Shown: positions 4,894 to 25,069 of the stretch, in pieces
How the letters are laid out: each line of letters opens with the position of its first letter
How positions within the stretch are numbered: position 1 is the first letter of the stretch
Source of the DNA: a virus
IMG/VR virus record: IMGVR_UViG_3300001979_000004
Coordinates: 1-25,069 of that record
Strand: one strand, 5' to 3'
DNA: 25,069 bases
Translations under genes and position numbers: made by a program
Notes under the pieces: generated by a model
Told to the model about the DNA's origin: nothing
Seen by the model: the letters and a program-made list of their open reading frames with translations, nothing else
Database searches by the model: none

Positions 4894-5214
4894 TTACTGA
4901 TGCAACAGCACGTCGCCGAAGGCGGACGGATTGGCGGCGATGCCGGCGGAATAGCCGATCTTGACTTTGCCGCCCGTGCTATCCGACGTGACAAGACCAG
5001 CGTCCCAATAGAGCGGCACCCCTTCGGCCCATGCCTGGGCTTCGACCTTGGGAAGTTCGAAGACGCCTTCACGGGCAAGGTTGACCTGCTCATCCTTCAA
5101 GGCAGCATGTGCCGCAACGCCGAAGAGCTTGCCGATAAGCACGCCCTCGCCGGACTTCACATCGGCGGGCGCGGTCAGTGGGAGTGTGCCGCCGGGCTGG
5201 ATATAGTTTTTCAT
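4894..5214 (-). CDS. DUF2190 family capsid decoration/cement protein
   Basis: This 106-residue protein matches the DUF2190 family by recognisable stretches: MKNYIQPGGTLPLTAPADVKSGEGVLIGKLFGVAAHAAL, then a Val/Ala rich beta region and the closing TGGKVKIGYSAGIAANPSAFGDVLLHQ. Family members are small trimeric proteins in phage heads that are thought to stabilise the expanded capsid. The gene follows the capsid gene after 73 bases, which contain a hairpin, and has AAGGA about ten bases before the ATG. Similar AAGGAAC sequences precede both this gene and the capsid gene, consistent with high late expression. Confidence 0.85.
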   Translation of the reverse strand: MKNYIQPGGTLPLTAPADVKSGEGVLIGKLFGVAAHAALKDEQVNLAREGVFELPKVEAQAWAEGVPLYWDAGLVTSDSTGGKVKIGYSAGIAANPSAFGDVLLHQ

Positions 5215-5246
5215 GGTGATCGTTCCTTATGAACAACGAAAACGTG

Positions 5247-5269
5247 AGGCGGACCCGAAGGACCCGCCT
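5247..5269 (-). promoter_or_regulatory. Hairpin between capsid and decoration genes
   Basis: A 23-base inverted repeat with ten-base arms, two of the pairs being G-T, and a three-base loop lies 18 bases after the capsid stop codon. There is no run of T directly after it on the transcribed strand. It may act as an mRNA processing or stability element, or a leaky attenuator setting the ratio of capsid to decoration protein, rather than a full terminator. Confidence 0.4.
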
Positions 5270-5287
5270 TTGTTTCGCGATGCCGCG

Positions 5288-6943
5288 TTAGGCCGGCTTG
5301 CCGGGATTATGGTAGCCAAAGCGGAAGTCGGTCGCGCCGCAGCCGAAGTCGTGTTCCACCGACATGCTGAAACCCTGCCGACCGAAAGGCTCGTCCATGC
5401 GAACGCGCGGCGCTTCGTAACCGTCGAGATAGCCCCAGCGGTAATTGGAACCGGACGCGGGATCGGCAAAGAGGTCCCAGCCCGGCCCTTCGATCTGCGA
5501 AGTTTCGACAAGCTCGAATTTGCCCGAGAAAATGTTGACCGTCGAAACCGTGGCCGGCGTGATGGAGGCCAGCAGCTTTTCCGCATTCGTGAGCTGATCG
5601 GGACCGACAAGCATGATGCGCGCCGGGTTCGCCAGCATCGGCCTGTCATCGATAGTCTTCTGTTTGCTCATGGCCTTGCGGCCCTCGCCGACGCTATCGA
5701 CGGAGATCGCCGAGGCAGCGCCGAGATTGCCGTGATCGGCATGGAAGATAGGCTTTCCATCTGCCAGCTTGCCATTGTAGGCGTCGGCATAGAAGGTGAC
5801 TTCCTCGAAGAGCGCGACCGAGGAACCGTAGCTTGTCAGAAGATCGGCGATAGCGCCGAGGTCGTCATTGATGAGCATCGGACGGCTGATGTTGAGCGCG
5901 ATGGCGTAGCTGAATACGCGCACCGATTCCTTGCCCTCGCCGAACGAGCCGTATTTGATTTCACCGTTCTCCAGCACCTTTTTCAGCATCGGGAAGTCGC
6001 CGACGCGAACGAGCGTATCCGGACGGAAGTCGCGGAAGTTTTTCTTCCGGGCAAACTTGCGGAATGTCGGCTGCGCGAGCGCATAGCGCTGCTCAAGCGT
6101 ACGGTTCACAGCACCTTCGAAGATTGCCGGGAAGTCGGAGGTTGCATGCGACGCACGCGTGAAAATGTCGTCGATGTCACGGGCGTTCAGCATGCGGCGA
6201 CCACGGAAATTGACGCTATCGGCAGCGATGTCGATAAGCCCCTGTCCCGTGAATTGCCGGGCAGCCGCAGATGGACCGTCCTTCGGCATGGGAGCGCCAA
6301 GCCCGTAGGAAAGCGCTTCGATACGGGCCGAGCGGATCGTTTCGCTTTGATCCTGCCCGACCTGCGCCCGTACATGGCTGTCAGTTTTAACCGACTGGTC
6401 CTTGTCGAACAGCTTTTCGAACAGCGCCGAGCGGAAAGCCTCTACCGACGTGCCAGCGCGGATGTGCTCGCGGCCGAAGTCAGAAACACCCGCGCGGGCT
6501 GCGAGTTCGTCAATCGTCGCCGACCGCGTGCGCTCGGCAAGAATGCCTTGCTGCTCGGCGTCGGCATTATGATTGAGCGGCGGCGTAACCGGCGCGTTGC
6601 GTGCAGCGTTTTCGAGCGTGGTAATCTCGCTGCGGACTTGTTCAATTTCCGCAAGGATACCGGCATGGTCCTGCTCGATAGCGCGAGCGGCCTCGCTCGA
6701 CAGGCCGTCCACCAGTTCGCTCCGCTTTTTCTCGGCGCGGCTGGTCAGGTCGGTCAACTTGCTGCGCAATGCCAGTATCGCCGGAGAGGCTTGGAGCATA
6801 TGGCTTAAGCCGCCGCCCTGCAAAATGGTGTCGTGACCGATCAGTGCCGAGGCGTGAGAAGGATCGGCGGAAATGATGATGAAGGCGAGGCCGAAGCAAA
6901 GAATTGCGGCGACGGTCGCGAAAACATATGCAGCCTTTTTCAT
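5288..6943 (-). CDS. Phage major capsid protein with unusual N-terminal signal-like segment
   Basis: This encodes the shell subunit. From ATG 6943 (AAGGAA nine bases upstream) it has 551 residues; an ATG eleven codons earlier is the other choice. Residues 1-33 look like a Sec signal or membrane anchor: two Lys, an 18-residue hydrophobic core, then a possible Ala-Ser-Ala cleavage site. About residues 55-105 form a coiled-coil scaffold-like segment (SKLTDLTSRAEKKRSELVDGL...EIEQVRSEITTLENA). The body carries capsid phrases such as SDFPAIFEGAVNRTL, LTSYGSSVALFEEVTFY, KPIFHADHGNLG, LVGPDQLTNAEKLLASITP, GYLDGYEAPRVRMDEPF and VEHDFGCGATDFRFGYHNPGK. In related phages this capsid type is often fused to the prohead protease, but here the protease is a separate gene 800 bases upstream. 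An internal ATG at 6799 would remove the signal-like part but has no visible ribosome site. Confidence 0.88.
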   Translation of the reverse strand: MKKAAYVFATVAAILCFGLAFIIISADPSHASALIGHDTILQGGGLSHMLQASPAILALRSKLTDLTSRAEKKRSELVDGLSSEAARAIEQDHAGILAEIEQVRSEITTLENAARNAPVTPPLNHNADAEQQGILAERTRSATIDELAARAGVSDFGREHIRAGTSVEAFRSALFEKLFDKDQSVKTDSHVRAQVGQDQSETIRSARIEALSYGLGAPMPKDGPSAAARQFTGQGLIDIAADSVNFRGRRMLNARDIDDIFTRASHATSDFPAIFEGAVNRTLEQRYALAQPTFRKFARKKNFRDFRPDTLVRVGDFPMLKKVLENGEIKYGSFGEGKESVRVFSYAIALNISRPMLINDDLGAIADLLTSYGSSVALFEEVTFYADAYNGKLADGKPIFHADHGNLGAASAISVDSVGEGRKAMSKQKTIDDRPMLANPARIMLVGPDQLTNAEKLLASITPATVSTVNIFSGKFELVETSQIEGPGWDLFADPASGSNYRWGYLDGYEAPRVRMDEPFGRQGFSMSVEHDFGCGATDFRFGYHNPGKPA

Positions 6944-19542: not shown

Positions 19543-19893
19543 ATGAGCAACGTTAGCCGTATTCACTCGAATAAGACGCCCCAGAGAATCCACTATATTC
19601 CTGAGTGGGCGGAGATGCGTCACCTTAAGCAAGTGAACATCGCTGAAGAGCTGAACGTTGACAAAGGACTGGTTTCTAAGTGGTTCAAGGGCACATTGCC
19701 CAAGCCTGAATATCTGGAAAAGTTAGCAGCCCTGTTCGGTACAGACGTGCACGGACTATTCCGCGAACCTCACGATGATTGGCTTGCGAAATTTTTCCGG
19801 GACAAGACCGAAGAGCAAAAAGACCGGGCAATATCGATGCTCAAACTGTTCTTTGACCAGCAAGCCAATGGCACCGGCACGGACGGCAAATAG
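19543..19893 (+). CDS. Phage repressor-like XRE regulator (CI-type candidate)
   Basis: This 116-residue protein has an XRE helix-turn-helix at about residues 18-75: YIPEWAEMRHLKQVNIAEELNVDKGLVSKWFKGTLPKPEYLEKLAALFG. A short C-terminal tail with WLAKFFRDKTEEQKDRAISMLKLFFDQQ follows and may serve dimerisation. It lacks the peptidase-like domain of LexA-type repressors, so induction by RecA-mediated cleavage is unlikely. It reads away from the Cro-like gene and is the only regulator on the + strand here, which fits a lysogeny keeper. The TTATGAAAC operators on both sides (19455 and 20093-20148) are its probable targets. Confidence 0.8.
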   Translation: MSNVSRIHSNKTPQRIHYIPEWAEMRHLKQVNIAEELNVDKGLVSKWFKGTLPKPEYLEKLAALFGTDVHGLFREPHDDWLAKFFRDKTEEQKDRAISMLKLFFDQQANGTGTDGK

Positions 19894-20600: not shown

Positions 20601-20780
20601 CAATGGCATCAAAGAACCAGCCAAATCGCACTACGGAACGACTCGCTCTTCCGCGTCGAGCCCTATGACGACTCCGCCTTCACCACCACCGCAGCGAACG
20701 CGCTGCAAGCCGAGCAAAAGGCTCGCCGCCAGCGCCCCGGCTTCATTGAATCCGTCAGCATTGTGAAAGGACCCGCTAGA
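20601..20780 (+). other. Open coding-like frame without a normal start, between TM protein and xis-like gene
   Basis: From the TAA at 20598 the same frame runs on for 54 codons with no ATG, GTG or TTG until GTG 20763, then enters the excisionase-like gene. Its translation ([25 protein letters not shown]...[19 protein letters not shown]) looks like real protein. A second frame has ATG 20603 ([12 protein letters not shown]..., stop 20668) and a following ATGA-coupled frame (20665-20766). One indel or a frameshift joining ATG 20603 to the first frame would make an intact gene. It may be a broken gene or a programmed frameshift. Confidence 0.4.
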
Positions 20781-21041
20781 ATGATGACCACTGAGACAAA
20801 CAGCAGCAATTCGATGCCCGCGCAACGCCCGCGCCTGCGCCGAAGCGACGTGCCGAATTATCTTGCCTCCAAACATGGCATCGACATTGCTGTATCAACG
20901 CTTGCCAAAATGGCGACAGTTGGCGGTGGGCCAACTATGCAGTACAGCGGACGCATCCCGCTATACCATGTTCGCGACTTAGACACCTGGGCAGAACAGC
21001 GCCTTTCAAAGGCCGTTCGCTCAACTTCTGAACTAAAGTGA
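20781..21041 (+). CDS. Excisionase-like DNA-binding protein
   Basis: ATG 20781, with AAAGGA at nine to ten bases, gives 86 residues; a GTG six codons earlier is the alternative. The core [61 protein letters not shown] matches the MerR/AlpA-like winged-helix used by small phage excisionases and helper DNA-binding proteins. Such proteins bend the attachment site and direct the integrase to excise. Being the last gene of the rightward operon before the integrase end supports this, although the defence pair now separates the two. Confidence 0.72.
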
Positions 21042-21165
21042 GCATTTATAGAGGTGCCTCCGATCCATTTCTAGATCAGCATCGAAAACACCATTAAGTT
21101 AGCCCCAATGGAGACGCACCAGAGATGCAGATGATTCACGCGTCCCTTAACAGATACGCACGAAA

Positions 21166-22002
21166 TCAAAGCAGTGATGCAAAGCGGCTGACATCCCTGG
21201 GAACAAGCAAGATGAGAATGCGACCTATGACCTCATCTGACAGTGACCTAGCCCCCTTGAATTTTAATATAGACCACGCGATTAGAATTACGAAATCATG
21301 ACCTCTACAAAACAGGCGTGGATCACCATCAAATTTCCCCCCCCATTCTAGCGCACTCTTCCATATTTCATCGATCCGATCGGCTGCTTTACTGTTAATT
21401 AGTGTGCGCTGCACGTATGTCTTATAGTCAAGTGCAACGGCTCCATCTTTTACCGAAAGATACCTTTCGAAATCGATATAATCTAGATCCAGCTTTGCAT
21501 TCCGAGCAGCGGTGCGAAGAGCAAATAACATCTTTAAGGTACTGCGGAAACTTGCATAGAAACGCTCCCAGTTTTTCACCTTCGCTTTCCCTGCATTGTT
21601 CACCAGCTCGCCAACGAAAACCTCTTCAAAGAAATATGTCTCGATATCACAAAATTCTGTCCAGAGCAGACCATTGCCTACCTCTAGCTCCCCAAGCCAA
21701 TGATCGACATCTCTGTCGACTACAAATCTCACGTTCTCCCTCTGATTTACCTGCGAAAGCTCTCGGCAGAGAATAATAAGCTTTTGCTTATTGCCACTCG
21801 TGAGCTTATGATCTTCAAATAATTTCTTATCAATTTGGACGACGTCGGCAGTATAGATCGCCCTTTTTTCAGTAGAACCATGCTCATATGCGCAAGCTAA
21901 GATGTCTTTATCAAACTGCCCTTCGACAAACACGTCGGTTAAGGTAGGTTCGAGTTCGTATCGTGTGCGCAGCTCATCAATAGTCCATCGAGGCATCTCC
22001 AT
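21166..22002 (-). CDS. ariB: DUF4435/TOPRIM-like protein, AriB of a PARIS-like defence system
   Basis: This 278-residue protein has the TOPRIM-type features of DUF4435: VFVEGQFDKDIL with Glu27 and Asp31/33 near the start, and FVVDRDVDHWLG with Asp96/98/100, the acidic metal-binding residues. A further acidic FCDIETYFFEEVF segment is typical. In PARIS, AriB is the effector: released from AriA when a phage anti-restriction protein is sensed, it cuts tRNA (reported for Escherichia coli tRNA-Lys) and stops growth. The ATG overlaps the ATPase stop (TGATG), so the pair is coupled. It is clearly A/T-richer than the surrounding phage genes, fitting separate acquisition. The rest of the molecule is not strongly diagnostic, and OLD-like systems use different nucleases. 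Confidence 0.78.
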   Translation of the reverse strand: MEMPRWTIDELRTRYELEPTLTDVFVEGQFDKDILACAYEHGSTEKRAIYTADVVQIDKKLFEDHKLTSGNKQKLIILCRELSQVNQRENVRFVVDRDVDHWLGELEVGNGLLWTEFCDIETYFFEEVFVGELVNNAGKAKVKNWERFYASFRSTLKMLFALRTAARNAKLDLDYIDFERYLSVKDGAVALDYKTYVQRTLINSKAADRIDEIWKSALEWGGKFDGDPRLFCRGHDFVILIAWSILKFKGARSLSDEVIGRILILLVPRDVSRFASLL

Positions 22003-23459
22003 CAGTAATTATTCTCCAACTTCACAACCTTATCGCGATGCTGGGAAATCAGCTCCAGAGAATGCGAAGCCAAGATAAACTGGATATCTGACCCCGACGT
22101 GATCTCCGTTAGGGACTGCAATAATTGTCGTTGCCATTTAACATTGAGAGAAATTTCGGGTTCATCGATCATAAATACGCTCGGTCGGTCGCGCGCAGTA
22201 AGAGCATAGCAAAACATCAGTATAAGCTGCTGCTCACCCGATGAAAGCTGGGAAGGCTCAAGTTTTTTAGTCGTTGTTACTATAGAAAACCCTTGAGTTA
22301 ATTTATAAATAATTTTCTTTCCGGTCAAAAACGTATTTATATTCTTAACGAATCTATCCAGTATATCGTATATTTGGGTTAACGCATCCAACCTCGACGA
22401 CACGCTCTGAATGTACGGCTTGATCAGCTCCGCCGAGAGCTCTCGTTGCTCGTTCGAATTGGACCGAAGTGACGCTTTAAATGCCTCCATGTCCAAGGCA
22501 GTCGCTAACTCATACTCCTCCATTTGGCGGGTTCGAAGTTCAATGTTTTCAAGCTTGTCAATGAGGGTTTCGAAAACGCTAGGCGATTTCGGCGAGCTTC
22601 CTTGATTATAATCACTCGAAAGGTGATGCAAAACGTCGACATAAACAGAATGAACGTTTGTCGACCCTTGGTTGGTGCTCAGAACGGCGCGGCGCTGAAC
22701 CCAGCGAGAAGCAGATACCATAGCTTGCGTTAGCGCAATCTCCCGCGCTCTGTTCACGAGATCATTTATACGCTTTGGCTCGTTATGTGTAATCGCACGC
22801 CGTAACTCCAATTCGTCGCTCGCATCGGCGACGGCATCACTATCAAGCCGTCGCTCAGCATTCACATAAAACATCGTTGGCGCAAGCTCGCTCAGGAGCT
22901 GAATGTAAGCTCGTTCACCCCGCTTGACGCCATCACTTGGTGCCCGGGACGCTGATAATTCGTCAGTTATCAATTGAAGGGCGCGCGGCGAAATCCTATT
23001 CGGATCAAAACCTTTTTCATTAAGGTATAGTGTAATTTCATTACTAGTAAGGCCGTCTGTCGCCGCAGAATTAAGATACCAATTCAACTCTTCGGTGCGG
23101 CCCTGATTATACAGCCACTCACTCAGTAACTGTCCGTCTCTTTCGATGGTCAACTTCATTGGCCCAGACGAGTAATCACCTTCCTCTGATAGGGACAGTC
23201 GCTCCGCTCTGAAGAGAACACCTGTGCTAAGCTTTACGGATAGCAGCCGAAACGCAACGGCTTTAAGAGCACTTCGATGGCTGCGATTGGTCCCAGCGGA
23301 TAGTAGATGAAATGCGAGACGGAGAATTGTGCTTTTTCCTACCCCATTATCACCATATAGTATGGCCGCGTTCGAAAAGTCACTTCGAGCGGGCAATTCA
23401 TATGAAAACTGATTAAATAAGTTCTGTACTGCTATTTGTGTTATGATGCTTTGACTCAT
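22002..23459 (-). CDS. ariA: ABC-type (SMC-like) ATPase, AriA of a PARIS-like defence system
   Basis: This 485-residue ATPase has all expected ABC/SMC motifs: Walker A GDNGVGKST at 36-44, signature LSSGEQQ at 405-411, Walker B VFMIDEPE at 428-435 and an H-loop (ASHS) at 464-467. The middle holds helices and a conserved RRLDSDAVADASDE stretch and lacks the long coiled coils of true SMC proteins. In PARIS, AriA assembles into a multimer that holds the DUF4435 partner and senses phage anti-restriction proteins such as Ocr. It begins after AGGAGG at five bases, a strong site. A possible promoter lies at 23483-23510. Together with ariB, this is a self-contained unit inserted between the excisionase and integrase genes, the usual cargo position. 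Confidence 0.8.
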   Translation of the reverse strand: MSQSIITQIAVQNLFNQFSYELPARSDFSNAAILYGDNGVGKSTILRLAFHLLSAGTNRSHRSALKAVAFRLLSVKLSTGVLFRAERLSLSEEGDYSSGPMKLTIERDGQLLSEWLYNQGRTEELNWYLNSAATDGLTSNEITLYLNEKGFDPNRISPRALQLITDELSASRAPSDGVKRGERAYIQLLSELAPTMFYVNAERRLDSDAVADASDELELRRAITHNEPKRINDLVNRAREIALTQAMVSASRWVQRRAVLSTNQGSTNVHSVYVDVLHHLSSDYNQGSSPKSPSVFETLIDKLENIELRTRQMEEYELATALDMEAFKASLRSNSNEQRELSAELIKPYIQSVSSRLDALTQIYDILDRFVKNINTFLTGKKIIYKLTQGFSIVTTTKKLEPSQLSSGEQQLILMFCYALTARDRPSVFMIDEPEISLNVKWQRQLLQSLTEITSGSDIQFILASHSLELISQHRDKVVKLENNY

Positions 23460-23482
23460 CCGCCCCTCCTAAAACACAACCC

Positions 23483-23510
23483 AAGATATCTTTTTACTTC
23501 GATAGAGCAA
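23483..23510 (-). promoter_or_regulatory. Possible promoter of the defence pair
   Basis: On the minus strand, TTGCTC (23510-23505), a 16-base spacer and TATCTT (23488-23483) make a plausible sigma-70-type promoter, 23 bases before the ATPase start with its AGGAGG. It is the best candidate in the 118 bases between the integrase and ATPase genes. It would allow expression in the lysogen, independent of phage regulators. Confidence 0.4.
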
Positions 23511-23577
23511 GTCTCCTTGCACGCGAGCTTTGTCGAAACATCTCGGCGATGTGACTGAAGTAGAATGGCAAACTCTG

Positions 23578-24810
23578 CTAATCGCAAACCATCATTCCGA
23601 AAATTTCGCGAGAAACCTTTTCAGCAGCTGCGATCAGTACGCTATCGAGGTGATGAACATATCGTTGCGTGACATTGCCAGCCGCATGCCCCAAGAGCGC
23701 TGAAATGGTGATCTCGGTAAATCCGAGATCACCCGCCACACTGGCATAAGAATGTCGTAGCGTGTGCGATGTCACGCCTTCTAGCCCGGCACGTTCCGTC
23801 AATCGGTCAAGCGCATCGTCCAATGCAGTATAGTGGCCGTTCTCGCTTCGTGGCCCAGGCAACACGAATGGATTTTCGCCCTCCCGCGAAACGCAATCAA
23901 GCACGTCAAAGACGACGCTTCCAACGGGACGAATAGAAGCATCCTCTTTGGAATCAGCGAGCCTTAGACAGCTTCCTGCCTTATCAAGCTCAGACCACAT
24001 CAGGCCCGCAATCTCGCTCAAACGAAATCCGGTCAGTAGAAACAGTTTAGTGCCGACAACGCCTTGCCACAGTTCGTCGTCCGCAGTTTCAAGAACCTTT
24101 CCGAGCGCCCGATACTCCTTCGGAGTGAGTCGTCGCGTGCGCTTGCCAACTGCTGGCTTTTTAATGCCGCGTGCGGGATTGGCCGGGATGATCCCTTCAG
24201 AAACGGCATAGGTGAGGATAGCACTAAGAAGGGTTACCGCTTGCGATGCGGTTCCTGCCCCGCCAGTGACAACCGCCCTTCCCCGGAGCTTTCCCGTTTT
24301 CTCGTCCGCTGCTGTCTTGCCTGTCGTCACATCACGCATCATTTTGATGGCATCAGCAGTTGTCAGTTCCTGCACAAGCCGATTGCCTATCAGCGGGATG
24401 ATATGGCGGTTTGCCCGCCCCTTATCAACGTACAAGGTTGACGACTTTTTCGGCTTCCCGCGCTTGCCGAATACAAGCCCCTTATCAGCCGCCTCGAAAT
24501 ACATCTCGCAAAGCTCTTTGACCGTAAGCGCCTTGCGCCGTGTCGAACGGTCAAGCTGCGGGTCATCCCCGCGAGCCACGTCACCTAGAACGCCCTTCGC
24601 TTCCTTACGAGCTTCTTCGACGGTCAACGGGCCGTGTGCGCCGATCTTGAATCGGCGGGTCTGCTTGCCGGCACGATACTGTGCGACGTAGGTCTTGCGA
24701 CCGCTAGGCCAGACCCGGACGCCGAAGCCCGGCAACTCGTCATCCCACTCAAAATAGTCTTTGTCGCGCACCTGCAGGGCGTCTATCATTCTCTTCGTCA
24801 GTTTCGCCAA
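23578..24810 (-). CDS. int: Tyrosine-family integrase (DUF4102 arm-binding type)
   Basis: I prefer TTG 24810 (protein MAKLTKRMIDALQ..., 410 residues), because GAGG lies about eight bases upstream and the family normally starts in this way; ATG 24840 or 24861 would add leader residues. Residues 1-90 are the DUF4102 arm-binding domain (LPGFGVRVWPSGRKTYVAQYRAG). Catalytic residues, numbered from TTG, are Arg263 (TGFRLSEI), Lys288, His349 and Arg352 (HTLRH), His375 (LLGHA) and Tyr384 (TQRYVHH), all present. The enzyme exchanges phage and host DNA at the tRNA site nearby. It is transcribed away from the attachment site. Repeats AGGAAGCA near its start may be its arm-type sites. Confidence 0.95.
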   Translation of the reverse strand: MAKLTKRMIDALQVRDKDYFEWDDELPGFGVRVWPSGRKTYVAQYRAGKQTRRFKIGAHGPLTVEEARKEAKGVLGDVARGDDPQLDRSTRRKALTVKELCEMYFEAADKGLVFGKRGKPKKSSTLYVDKGRANRHIIPLIGNRLVQELTTADAIKMMRDVTTGKTAADEKTGKLRGRAVVTGGAGTASQAVTLLSAILTYAVSEGIIPANPARGIKKPAVGKRTRRLTPKEYRALGKVLETADDELWQGVVGTKLFLLTGFRLSEIAGLMWSELDKAGSCLRLADSKEDASIRPVGSVVFDVLDCVSREGENPFVLPGPRSENGHYTALDDALDRLTERAGLEGVTSHTLRHSYASVAGDLGFTEITISALLGHAAGNVTQRYVHHLDSVLIAAAEKVSREIFGMMVCD

Positions 24811-24831
24811 GCCAGCAACCTCACCCGTTAC

Positions 24832-24957
24832 AGGAAGCATATAGGAAGCAGAAGGAAGCAAATCGCGGTAAATTTGATCCAGACCGTTGTAATTGCGGAA
24901 AGAGCTTACCGCTTGATCTGGATAGCAAAATCAAAATGGAGTAAACAAGAGGAAGCA
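24832..24957. repeat. Four AGGAAGCA repeats near the attachment site, possible integrase arm sites
   Basis: AGGAAGCA occurs at 24832-24839, 24843-24850, 24853-24860 and 24950-24957. The first three are spaced 10-11 bases, one helical turn, which is typical for integrase arm-type sites. They partly overlap the extended N-terminal frame of the integrase, a further argument for the TTG 24810 start. The interval 24861-24949 holds no gene. Confidence 0.55.
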
Positions 24958-24975
24958 GCGGAAAATCGTTCACAC

Positions 24976-25022
24976 CTGCCTTCCGATTCCAAAGGTCACA
25001 GGTTCGAATCCTGTCGGGTGCG
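24976..25022 (+). other. Attachment-site remnant: 3' part of a tRNA gene, most like tRNA-Arg(CCG)
   Basis: The 3' half of a tRNA is clear: variable loop AGGTC (24993-24997), T-stem/loop ACAGG-TTCGAAT-CCTGT (24998-25014), acceptor strand CGGGTGC (25015-25021) and discriminator G. The 7 bases before the degenerate stem read TTCCGAT (24981-24987), with CCG in the anticodon position, and CTGCC just before. The acceptor strand fits Arg tRNAs of this group. No D-arm or 5' acceptor strand (GCACCCG) occurs here, and bases 24988-24992 do not pair with 24976-24980, so it is not a functional gene. In the common arrangement the intact tRNA lies at the other end of the prophage, outside the left edge. No CCA follows. 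Confidence 0.72.
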
Positions 25023-25069
25023 GTTCCGATCTTACTGAAATCATTGAGCTTTCTCTTTATTCTGCTGAT
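25023..25069. other. Probable host chromosome beyond the attachment site
   Basis: The last 47 bases follow the tRNA fragment, have no gene visible, and include a T-rich run (CTTTCTCTTTATT) that could be the terminator region of the original tRNA gene. Called host DNA only because it lies beyond the tRNA-type attachment remnant. Confidence 0.5.

Follow-up and report, generated by a model that had tools for sequence, protein, structure and literature searches.

The gene pair beside the integrase in the virus record IMGVR_UViG_3300001979_000004 is very probably an abortive-infection system of the PARIS type that a temperate phage carries as cargo; the host of this phage probably belongs to the Hyphomicrobiales. 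The record was analysed over its whole 25,069 bases, which are called the window here. The two genes are translationally coupled and conserved together, differ in composition from the phage genes, occupy a cargo position, and have the motifs and predicted folds of the PARIS proteins AriA and AriB; judged by sequence kinship and modelled fold, the pair is PARIS by descent. What is new is a supported nine-row PARIS branch that has kept its Toprim acids, and the slot next to the integrase in which the pair lies. The preliminary description of this DNA had proposed that the known range of the system would be widened by its presence in an alphaproteobacterium. This did not hold, as PARIS was predicted in Sulfitobacter (PMC10221251, excerpts) and a pair is present in the Sinorhizobium phage Aussie; since alphaproteobacterial PARIS is already known, the finding is not a new system but a divergent branch of one already described, in a phage slot that is new. 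Overall, 5.2% of genomes, spread over diverse clades, were reported to have PARIS (PMC9122126, excerpts). In excerpts of the literature on PARIS, defence hotspots and rhizobial prophages no description of the branch or the slot was found, and the term "PARIS" had 0 occurrences in three papers on rhizobial or Hyphomicrobiales prophages (PMC12429752, PMC11476347, PMC11080155).

Phage and host

The gene content of the window is that of a tailed temperate phage, of which it covers a part: genes for terminase, portal, head protease, baseplate and tail are present, and so are those for a DNA methyltransferase, a tyrosine integrase and regulators of the repressor and CII types. One regulator (19543-19893) gave a weak match to the PADLOC model RmrA (5e-5). 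The DNA has low similarity to phages, the sole near match being about 470 bases of the Sinorhizobium phage phi3LM21 (78.7%), and the methyltransferase is nearest to those of Rhizobium and Sinorhizobium phages; from these two likenesses the host is probably a member of the Hyphomicrobiales, a soil bacterium of the rhizobium group. Relatives of the integrase were found on 10 contigs, at 63-95% identity. The 31 bases of the tRNA-Arg 3' end (Table 1) lie inside an ARAGORN-called, complete tRNA-Arg(ccg) gene in seven of the 11 fetched stretches, there being no complete tRNA gene in the window, and they are the probable attachment site of the phage.

Table 1. Features of the window, and contents of the corresponding slot in six contigs of the same layout
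Feature	Position	Strand	Remarks
ariA-like gene, 485 aa	22002..23459	-	ABC/AAA_21-type ATPase; presumed sensor holding the nuclease inactive
ariB-like gene, 278 aa	21166..22002	-	Toprim nuclease; presumed tRNA-cleaving effector
TGATG junction	22000..22004	-	ariA stop and ariB start share one base; translational coupling
Ribosome-binding site AGGAGG	23460..23474	-	5 nt ahead of the ariA ATG
Tyrosine integrase (int)	23578..24861	-	Phage_integrase 4.6e-17; PHROG integrase 1.6e-53; one border of the cargo slot
Small excisionase-like gene	20763..21041	+	other slot border; no family match; homologue downstream of related integrases
tRNA-Arg(CCG) 3' end, 31 bases	24991..25021	+	probable attachment site near right end of window
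L058 slot			Eco57I-type methylase with weak HSDR_N end
L059 slot			RmrA
L060 slot			SIR2 and HerA
L061 slot			GmrSD_N protein; the GmrSD_N proteins of L061 and L062 match NsnA and PD-T4-2_A
L062 slot			GmrSD_N protein and HEPN protein
L063 slot			no defence-type match

The gene pair

Both open reading frames of the pair, and its position between the integrase and the small gene, were confirmed as first described, together with the one-base overlap read as translational coupling and the strong ribosome site of its own. The possible promoter was not recovered, since a sigma-70 scan found no minus-strand site upstream of ariA in 23460-23577; its total over 20700-25069 was 6, which is within chance (3.7 +/- 1.9 in shuffles). 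The greater A+T richness of the pair was borne out, GC being 0.466 in ariA and 0.449 in ariB compared with 0.577-0.614 in six phage genes and 0.557 in int, and third-position GC being 0.479 and 0.455 compared with 0.660-0.719 in six phage genes. This low GC, both overall and at third positions, fits cargo gained from elsewhere, and the pair is retained as phage-borne cargo.

Relatives of the pair come from Alteromonas, a Comamonadaceae bacterium, Pseudomonas, Variovorax and viral contigs, with 45-51% identity in AriA and 33-38% in AriB. An AriB-like gene stands directly after the AriA-like gene in all seven distinct informative relatives (L002 = L003, L004, L005, L006, L007, L008 and L051; L052, which ends right after ariA, was left out), and this conserved order argues that the reading frames are genes and not chance. 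L008, from Variovorax sp. SG517 (4974-6382), has an ariA-like frame split in two and an open ariB-like frame downstream of it, which may reflect decay or a sequencing error.

Kinship with PARIS

The Walker A, ABC signature, Walker B and H-loop that had been noticed in the ATPase are invariant in 8/8 AriA-like proteins (Walker A at 36-44, except position 40; LSSGEQQ at 405-411; DEPE at 432-435; H466). Its best PADLOC model was AriA (84.2 bits, 2.6e-24), compared with 61.1 bits for the best PtuA model and further scores against mad3 and AbiLi models, and AriA was the top PDB sequence match both for the window protein and for its family profile. ATPase model scores taken alone are weak evidence that discriminates poorly in this group, since the AriA of a Yersinia phage pair (L057) scores 93.3 bits with a PtuA model and 89.6 with AriA (PADLOC). 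The predicted structure, of only fair quality (pLDDT 74.1, pTM 0.66), was matched to PARIS AriA (8ux9_C) with Z 22.9 and an rmsd of 4.2 over 357 residues, and the next family, retron PtuA, came 7 Z units lower at 15.9.

The sole PADLOC match of the partner was AriB (3.3e-9). Its model (pLDDT 83.6) was superimposed on PARIS AriB (8ux9_A) with Z 17.1 and an rmsd of 3.9 over 258 of 278 residues at 19% identity, the next folds being the C-terminal region of OLD (Z 6.2) and GajA (Z 4.3). Both predicted folds thus match the PARIS proteins well above the next families. Foldseek placed the AriB model at 5.8e-9, and the only two chains below 0.001 were both AriB. A profile-profile comparison of the branch with nine AriBs from outside it (three from phage records, six from genomes) gave 96.9% and E 1.3e-10 over 224 columns, a figure that comes without a negative-control comparison. 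Sequence searches of the PDB gave a single, marginal match of the window AriB, to E. coli AriB (0.023), and the family profile matched AriB at 0.086 and the unrelated KRR1 protein at 0.091; the AriB of L051 had no PDB match, and likewise none was found for the DUF4435-positive AriB of L057.

The partner had also been described as having the TOPRIM-type acidic motifs of DUF4435. The acids are there, E27, D31, D96, D98 and E121 being invariant in 8/8 AriB-like proteins, but Pfam lists no DUF4435 (PF14491) match for the window AriB up to the limit of E 10, and none of the eight clade members reaches 27 bits (best 20.0). Hence the profile expectations stood for the ATPase, which is best matched by AriA and not by OLD or Gabija, and fell for the DUF4435 similarity of its partner. 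The discoverers of PARIS used a rule of AAA_15 at 32 bits or above, or AAA_21 at 27 bits or above, with a neighbour having DUF4435 at 27 bits or above (PMC9122126, excerpts). Under this rule the window ATPase passes with either model (AAA_21 82.8 bits, AAA_15 52.4 bits) and the DUF4435 part fails. The cut-off is better seen as a detection threshold than as a functional criterion, since two of ten AriBs from other branches also miss it, with no match in L053 and 23.0 bits in L025, the other eight reaching 27 bits. On the evidence of the PADLOC AriB model, the profile-profile comparison and the predicted fold, the window AriB is akin to the DUF4435 AriBs. The PADLOC AriB model matches five of the seven clade members tested, and found nothing in genome G002, which has a member. 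The viral contig L053 (1314-3550) holds a pair with a PADLOC AriB match of 8.2e-11 and no DUF4435, another PARIS type missed by the rule.

In a concatenated tree with 42 rows the window falls in a group of nine rows with an SH-aLRT of 100, whose neighbours are L016 (99) and then L035, L046 and L057 (88, not starred). Three of these neighbours (L016, L035 and L057) were scanned by Pfam and have DUF4435 above the cut-off. The tree was built by a quick method without bootstrap and its root is for drawing only; 28 of the 30 PADLOC AriB loci were used, L043 and L044 being left out as longer single proteins, and fused proteins were split into a head and a tail part that overlap. A long-branch warning was given for L020, L053, L037, L039, L036, L046 and L041, and together with the quick method this leaves the branch order outside the nine-row group unsure. 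Taken together, best profiles, fold, profile-profile comparison and tree place the pair in PARIS, and its first identification as being of the AriA-AriB kind is upheld by best profile, fold and gene order; the case for PARIS rests on fold and kinship.

The window AriB as a single sequence found no relative among viral contigs, an AriB alignment found no contig there beyond those known, and the AriB of L053 as a query found only itself; an AriA alignment added L051, L052 and L053. A tblastn of AriB against 50,697 phage records and 72,556 plasmid records gave nothing at E<=1. With AriA as the tblastn query, eight of the phage records were matched, over short C-terminal stretches, and 35 of the plasmid records; a single plasmid match spans 80% or more of the query, with an identity of 23.8%. 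The A1 AriB profile, searched in 398 genomes of the phylum of G002, matched G002 (a source genome), G190 and G339. The G190 match is L016, a distant pair in the same gene order, and the G339 match (L017, E 5e-4) was dropped as chance, for it lies inside a 799-codon frame that is histidine kinase-like by eye. The PADLOC AriB model was matched in 33 of 398 genomes drawn from this phylum, so a PARIS-type AriB as such is common.

Catalytic and tRNA-contact residues

It was shown that E. coli AriB cuts tRNA-Lys(UUU), tRNA-Thr(UGU) and, less so, tRNA-Asn(GUU), that E26 is required for cleavage (E26A is inactive), and that K60 and K64 hold the anticodon loop, K60A/K64A jointly abolishing defence (PMC12409363, excerpts). 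In all three MAFFT modes E26 aligns with E27 of the window protein and D88/E90/E122 with D96/D98/E121, and the columns of K60 and K64 contain H/Y/L and S/T/E in the eight members. phmmer instead pairs K60 and K64 with window K59 and E63, in columns that are also variable in the clade, so the placement is uncertain. The column of R28 holds Q/L/S/E/V/F, and a T68-x-G70-N71-K72-Q73 motif (68-73) is invariant in 8/8 clade members. As far as the alignments tried can tell, the counterparts of K60 and K64 are conserved in the branch under none of them, and the Toprim acids are kept. The requirement for K60 and K64 is not known to be general in PARIS. Altered RNA recognition in the branch is plausible, and since the anticodon-loop lysines are not conserved, a different tRNA set would be expected.

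The cargo slot

A homologue of the small gene was found downstream of the related int in 11 of 11 contigs (ten with a related integrase, L058-L067, and L077 from the attachment-site search), with 49% identity in L067 and at 638-4,418 bp from int. The gene had been called excisionase-like; profile searches including Pfam, PADLOC and PHROG gave no family match, and the name now has its position downstream of related integrases as its one support. No ariA or ariB was found by tblastn at 1e-4 in these loci.

Six contigs (L058-L063) share the layout of the window, in that the small gene and int lie on opposite strands; their slots measure 1,199-4,157 bp. Ten proteins from these slots were scanned, leaving aside other slot reading frames and the contigs L064-L067 and L077, and six of the ten had PADLOC matches, which gives a defence-type gene in five of the six contigs (Table 1); no background rate for genes outside the slot accompanies this count, and models of methyltransferases and regulators can pick up ordinary genes of phages, as the RmrA match in the window illustrates. 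Because five of six contigs of the same layout hold other defence-type genes, the slot is read as a probable interchangeable defence hotspot.

Two slot proteins have no Pfam or PADLOC match at 0.001. One is a 348 aa protein in L063 (1280-2326), A+T-rich in a slot with GC 0.42 and a candidate defence gene; the other, of 299 aa, lies beside the RmrA-type regulator-protease in L059 (3836-4735) and is a candidate partner. L064-L067 and L077 have int and the excisionase-like gene on one strand. In L064-L066 and L077 the slot of about 640 bp has only a conserved short reading frame of 155-157 aa, Arc-type repressor-like by eye, which is possibly the ancestral state.

Discussion

E. coli PARIS is activated by an anti-restriction protein such as Ocr, and its tRNA nicks fall in the anticodon arm, at positions 40/41. 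In published work AriA was found to detect a phage protein and to let go of AriB, which then forms dimers and nicks the tRNAs of the host (PMC11455837; PMC12409363, excerpts). By homology we infer complex formation, trigger, tRNA cleavage and protection for the present branch, PARIS-like abortive infection by tRNA cleavage being the most likely mode of action. AriA would assemble through its ABC ATPase parts and keep AriB inactive, much as the AriA hexamer sequesters AriB in PARIS, until AriA is bound by a protein that an incoming phage brings in. This would set AriB free to dimerise and nick certain host tRNAs through a putative two-metal Toprim site of E27, D96, D98 and E121; translation would stop, the infected cell would be shut down, and the competing phage could not multiply.

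It is improbable that the pair is a PARIS-like sensor-effector pair whose Toprim-fold AriB acts on another substrate, either DNA or another RNA. Some OLD-family Toprim nucleases act on DNA, and such a role could be argued from the Toprim fold common to OLD and GajA (Z 4.3-6.2), from the lack of a conserved counterpart of the tRNA-gripping lysines, and from the mixed R28 column; yet the whole length of the protein, including parts outside the Toprim core, has the predicted fold of AriB. It is very unlikely that the pair is a phage addiction or superinfection-exclusion module of the toxin-antitoxin type, with no defence role against other phages. Addiction modules also occur near integrases, as this pair does. 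AriA restrains AriB in PARIS (PMC11455837), but deletion of either gene was non-toxic in the PARIS of E. coli B185 (PMC9122126, excerpts). Furthermore, related phages have other defence-type genes in the same slot. Membership in another ATPase-nuclease defence family (OLD, Gabija, Septu/PtuAB, retron PtuAB or AbiL) is scarcely credible, for although the ATPase also scores against PtuA, mad3 and AbiLi, and for one genuine PARIS ATPase (L057) a PtuA model gives a higher score than AriA, AriA models and, by 7 Z units, AriA structures are best for the window ATPase, the sole PADLOC match and whole-length fold of the partner are AriB, and the Toprim domain is a separate protein here and not within the ATPase chain as in OLD and GajA. 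OLD and Gabija were thus rejected on the best profiles, AriA and AriB, and on the AriB fold (17.1 versus 6.2 and 4.3), and Septu and retron PtuAB, which have the HNH nuclease PtuB as partner, because this partner matches AriB only and has 258 of 278 residues in the AriB fold.

Within PARIS a bolder proposal can be made, which we consider possible though doubtful as a whole: that this is a separate lineage with re-tooled RNA recognition, in which the two-metal Toprim site would be kept, the K60/K64 tweezers replaced by T-x-G-N-K-Q, a different tRNA set cut and a non-Ocr trigger used, and which would sit in an interchangeable slot beside the tRNA-Arg integrase of rhizobial-type phages and escape the DUF4435 rule.

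Like E. coli PARIS (PDB 8ux9, 8v45-8v49), the window pair consists of an ABC ATPase and a separate Toprim protein, with the fold shared over the whole length of AriB and most of AriA and with the same catalytic acids, and both are cargo of a phage or phage satellite (PMC9122126, excerpts). Unlike it, the window AriB, 19% identical in the structural alignment, is below the DUF4435 cut-off, and its clade is without conserved counterparts of K60, K64 and R28 and has the invariant T-x-G-N-K-Q (8/8). The Yersinia phage vB_YenM_31.17 (OM140653.1, L057 2164-4313), a temperate member of the Peduoviridae, also carries a PARIS-type pair (PADLOC AriB 1.3e-23), between its CI repressor and integrase, but its AriB has DUF4435 at 87.3 bits, it belongs to another tree branch, and its genes are annotated as an ATPase and a hypothetical protein. 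The Sinorhizobium phage Aussie (OR786373.1, L056 566-2775) is likewise a rhizobial temperate phage with AriA followed by AriB and a one-base overlap (AAA_21 69.1 bits, DUF4435 61.6 bits in Pfam), the pair standing near its c repressor; it differs in having a transposase instead of a tRNA-site integrase (PMC12429752, excerpts), in tree branch, and in that both genes are annotated as hypothetical. In the hotspots of P2 and P4 a slot at a fixed place is likewise filled by defence genes that can replace one another, including PARIS (Rousset et al. 2022, PMC9122126, excerpts), whereas the present one has a tRNA-Arg integrase on one side and an excisionase-like gene on the other, in rhizobial-type phages.

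As the branch falls below the DUF4435 rule, surveys based on DUF4435 would miss it and PARIS would be undercounted. With the same catalytic acids and probably different contacts to the anticodon loop, the branch may serve as an experiment of nature on tRNA choice by AriB. In rhizobial-type phages the slot is a further probable defence hotspot, and may be a place to seek further systems in agriculturally important bacteria.
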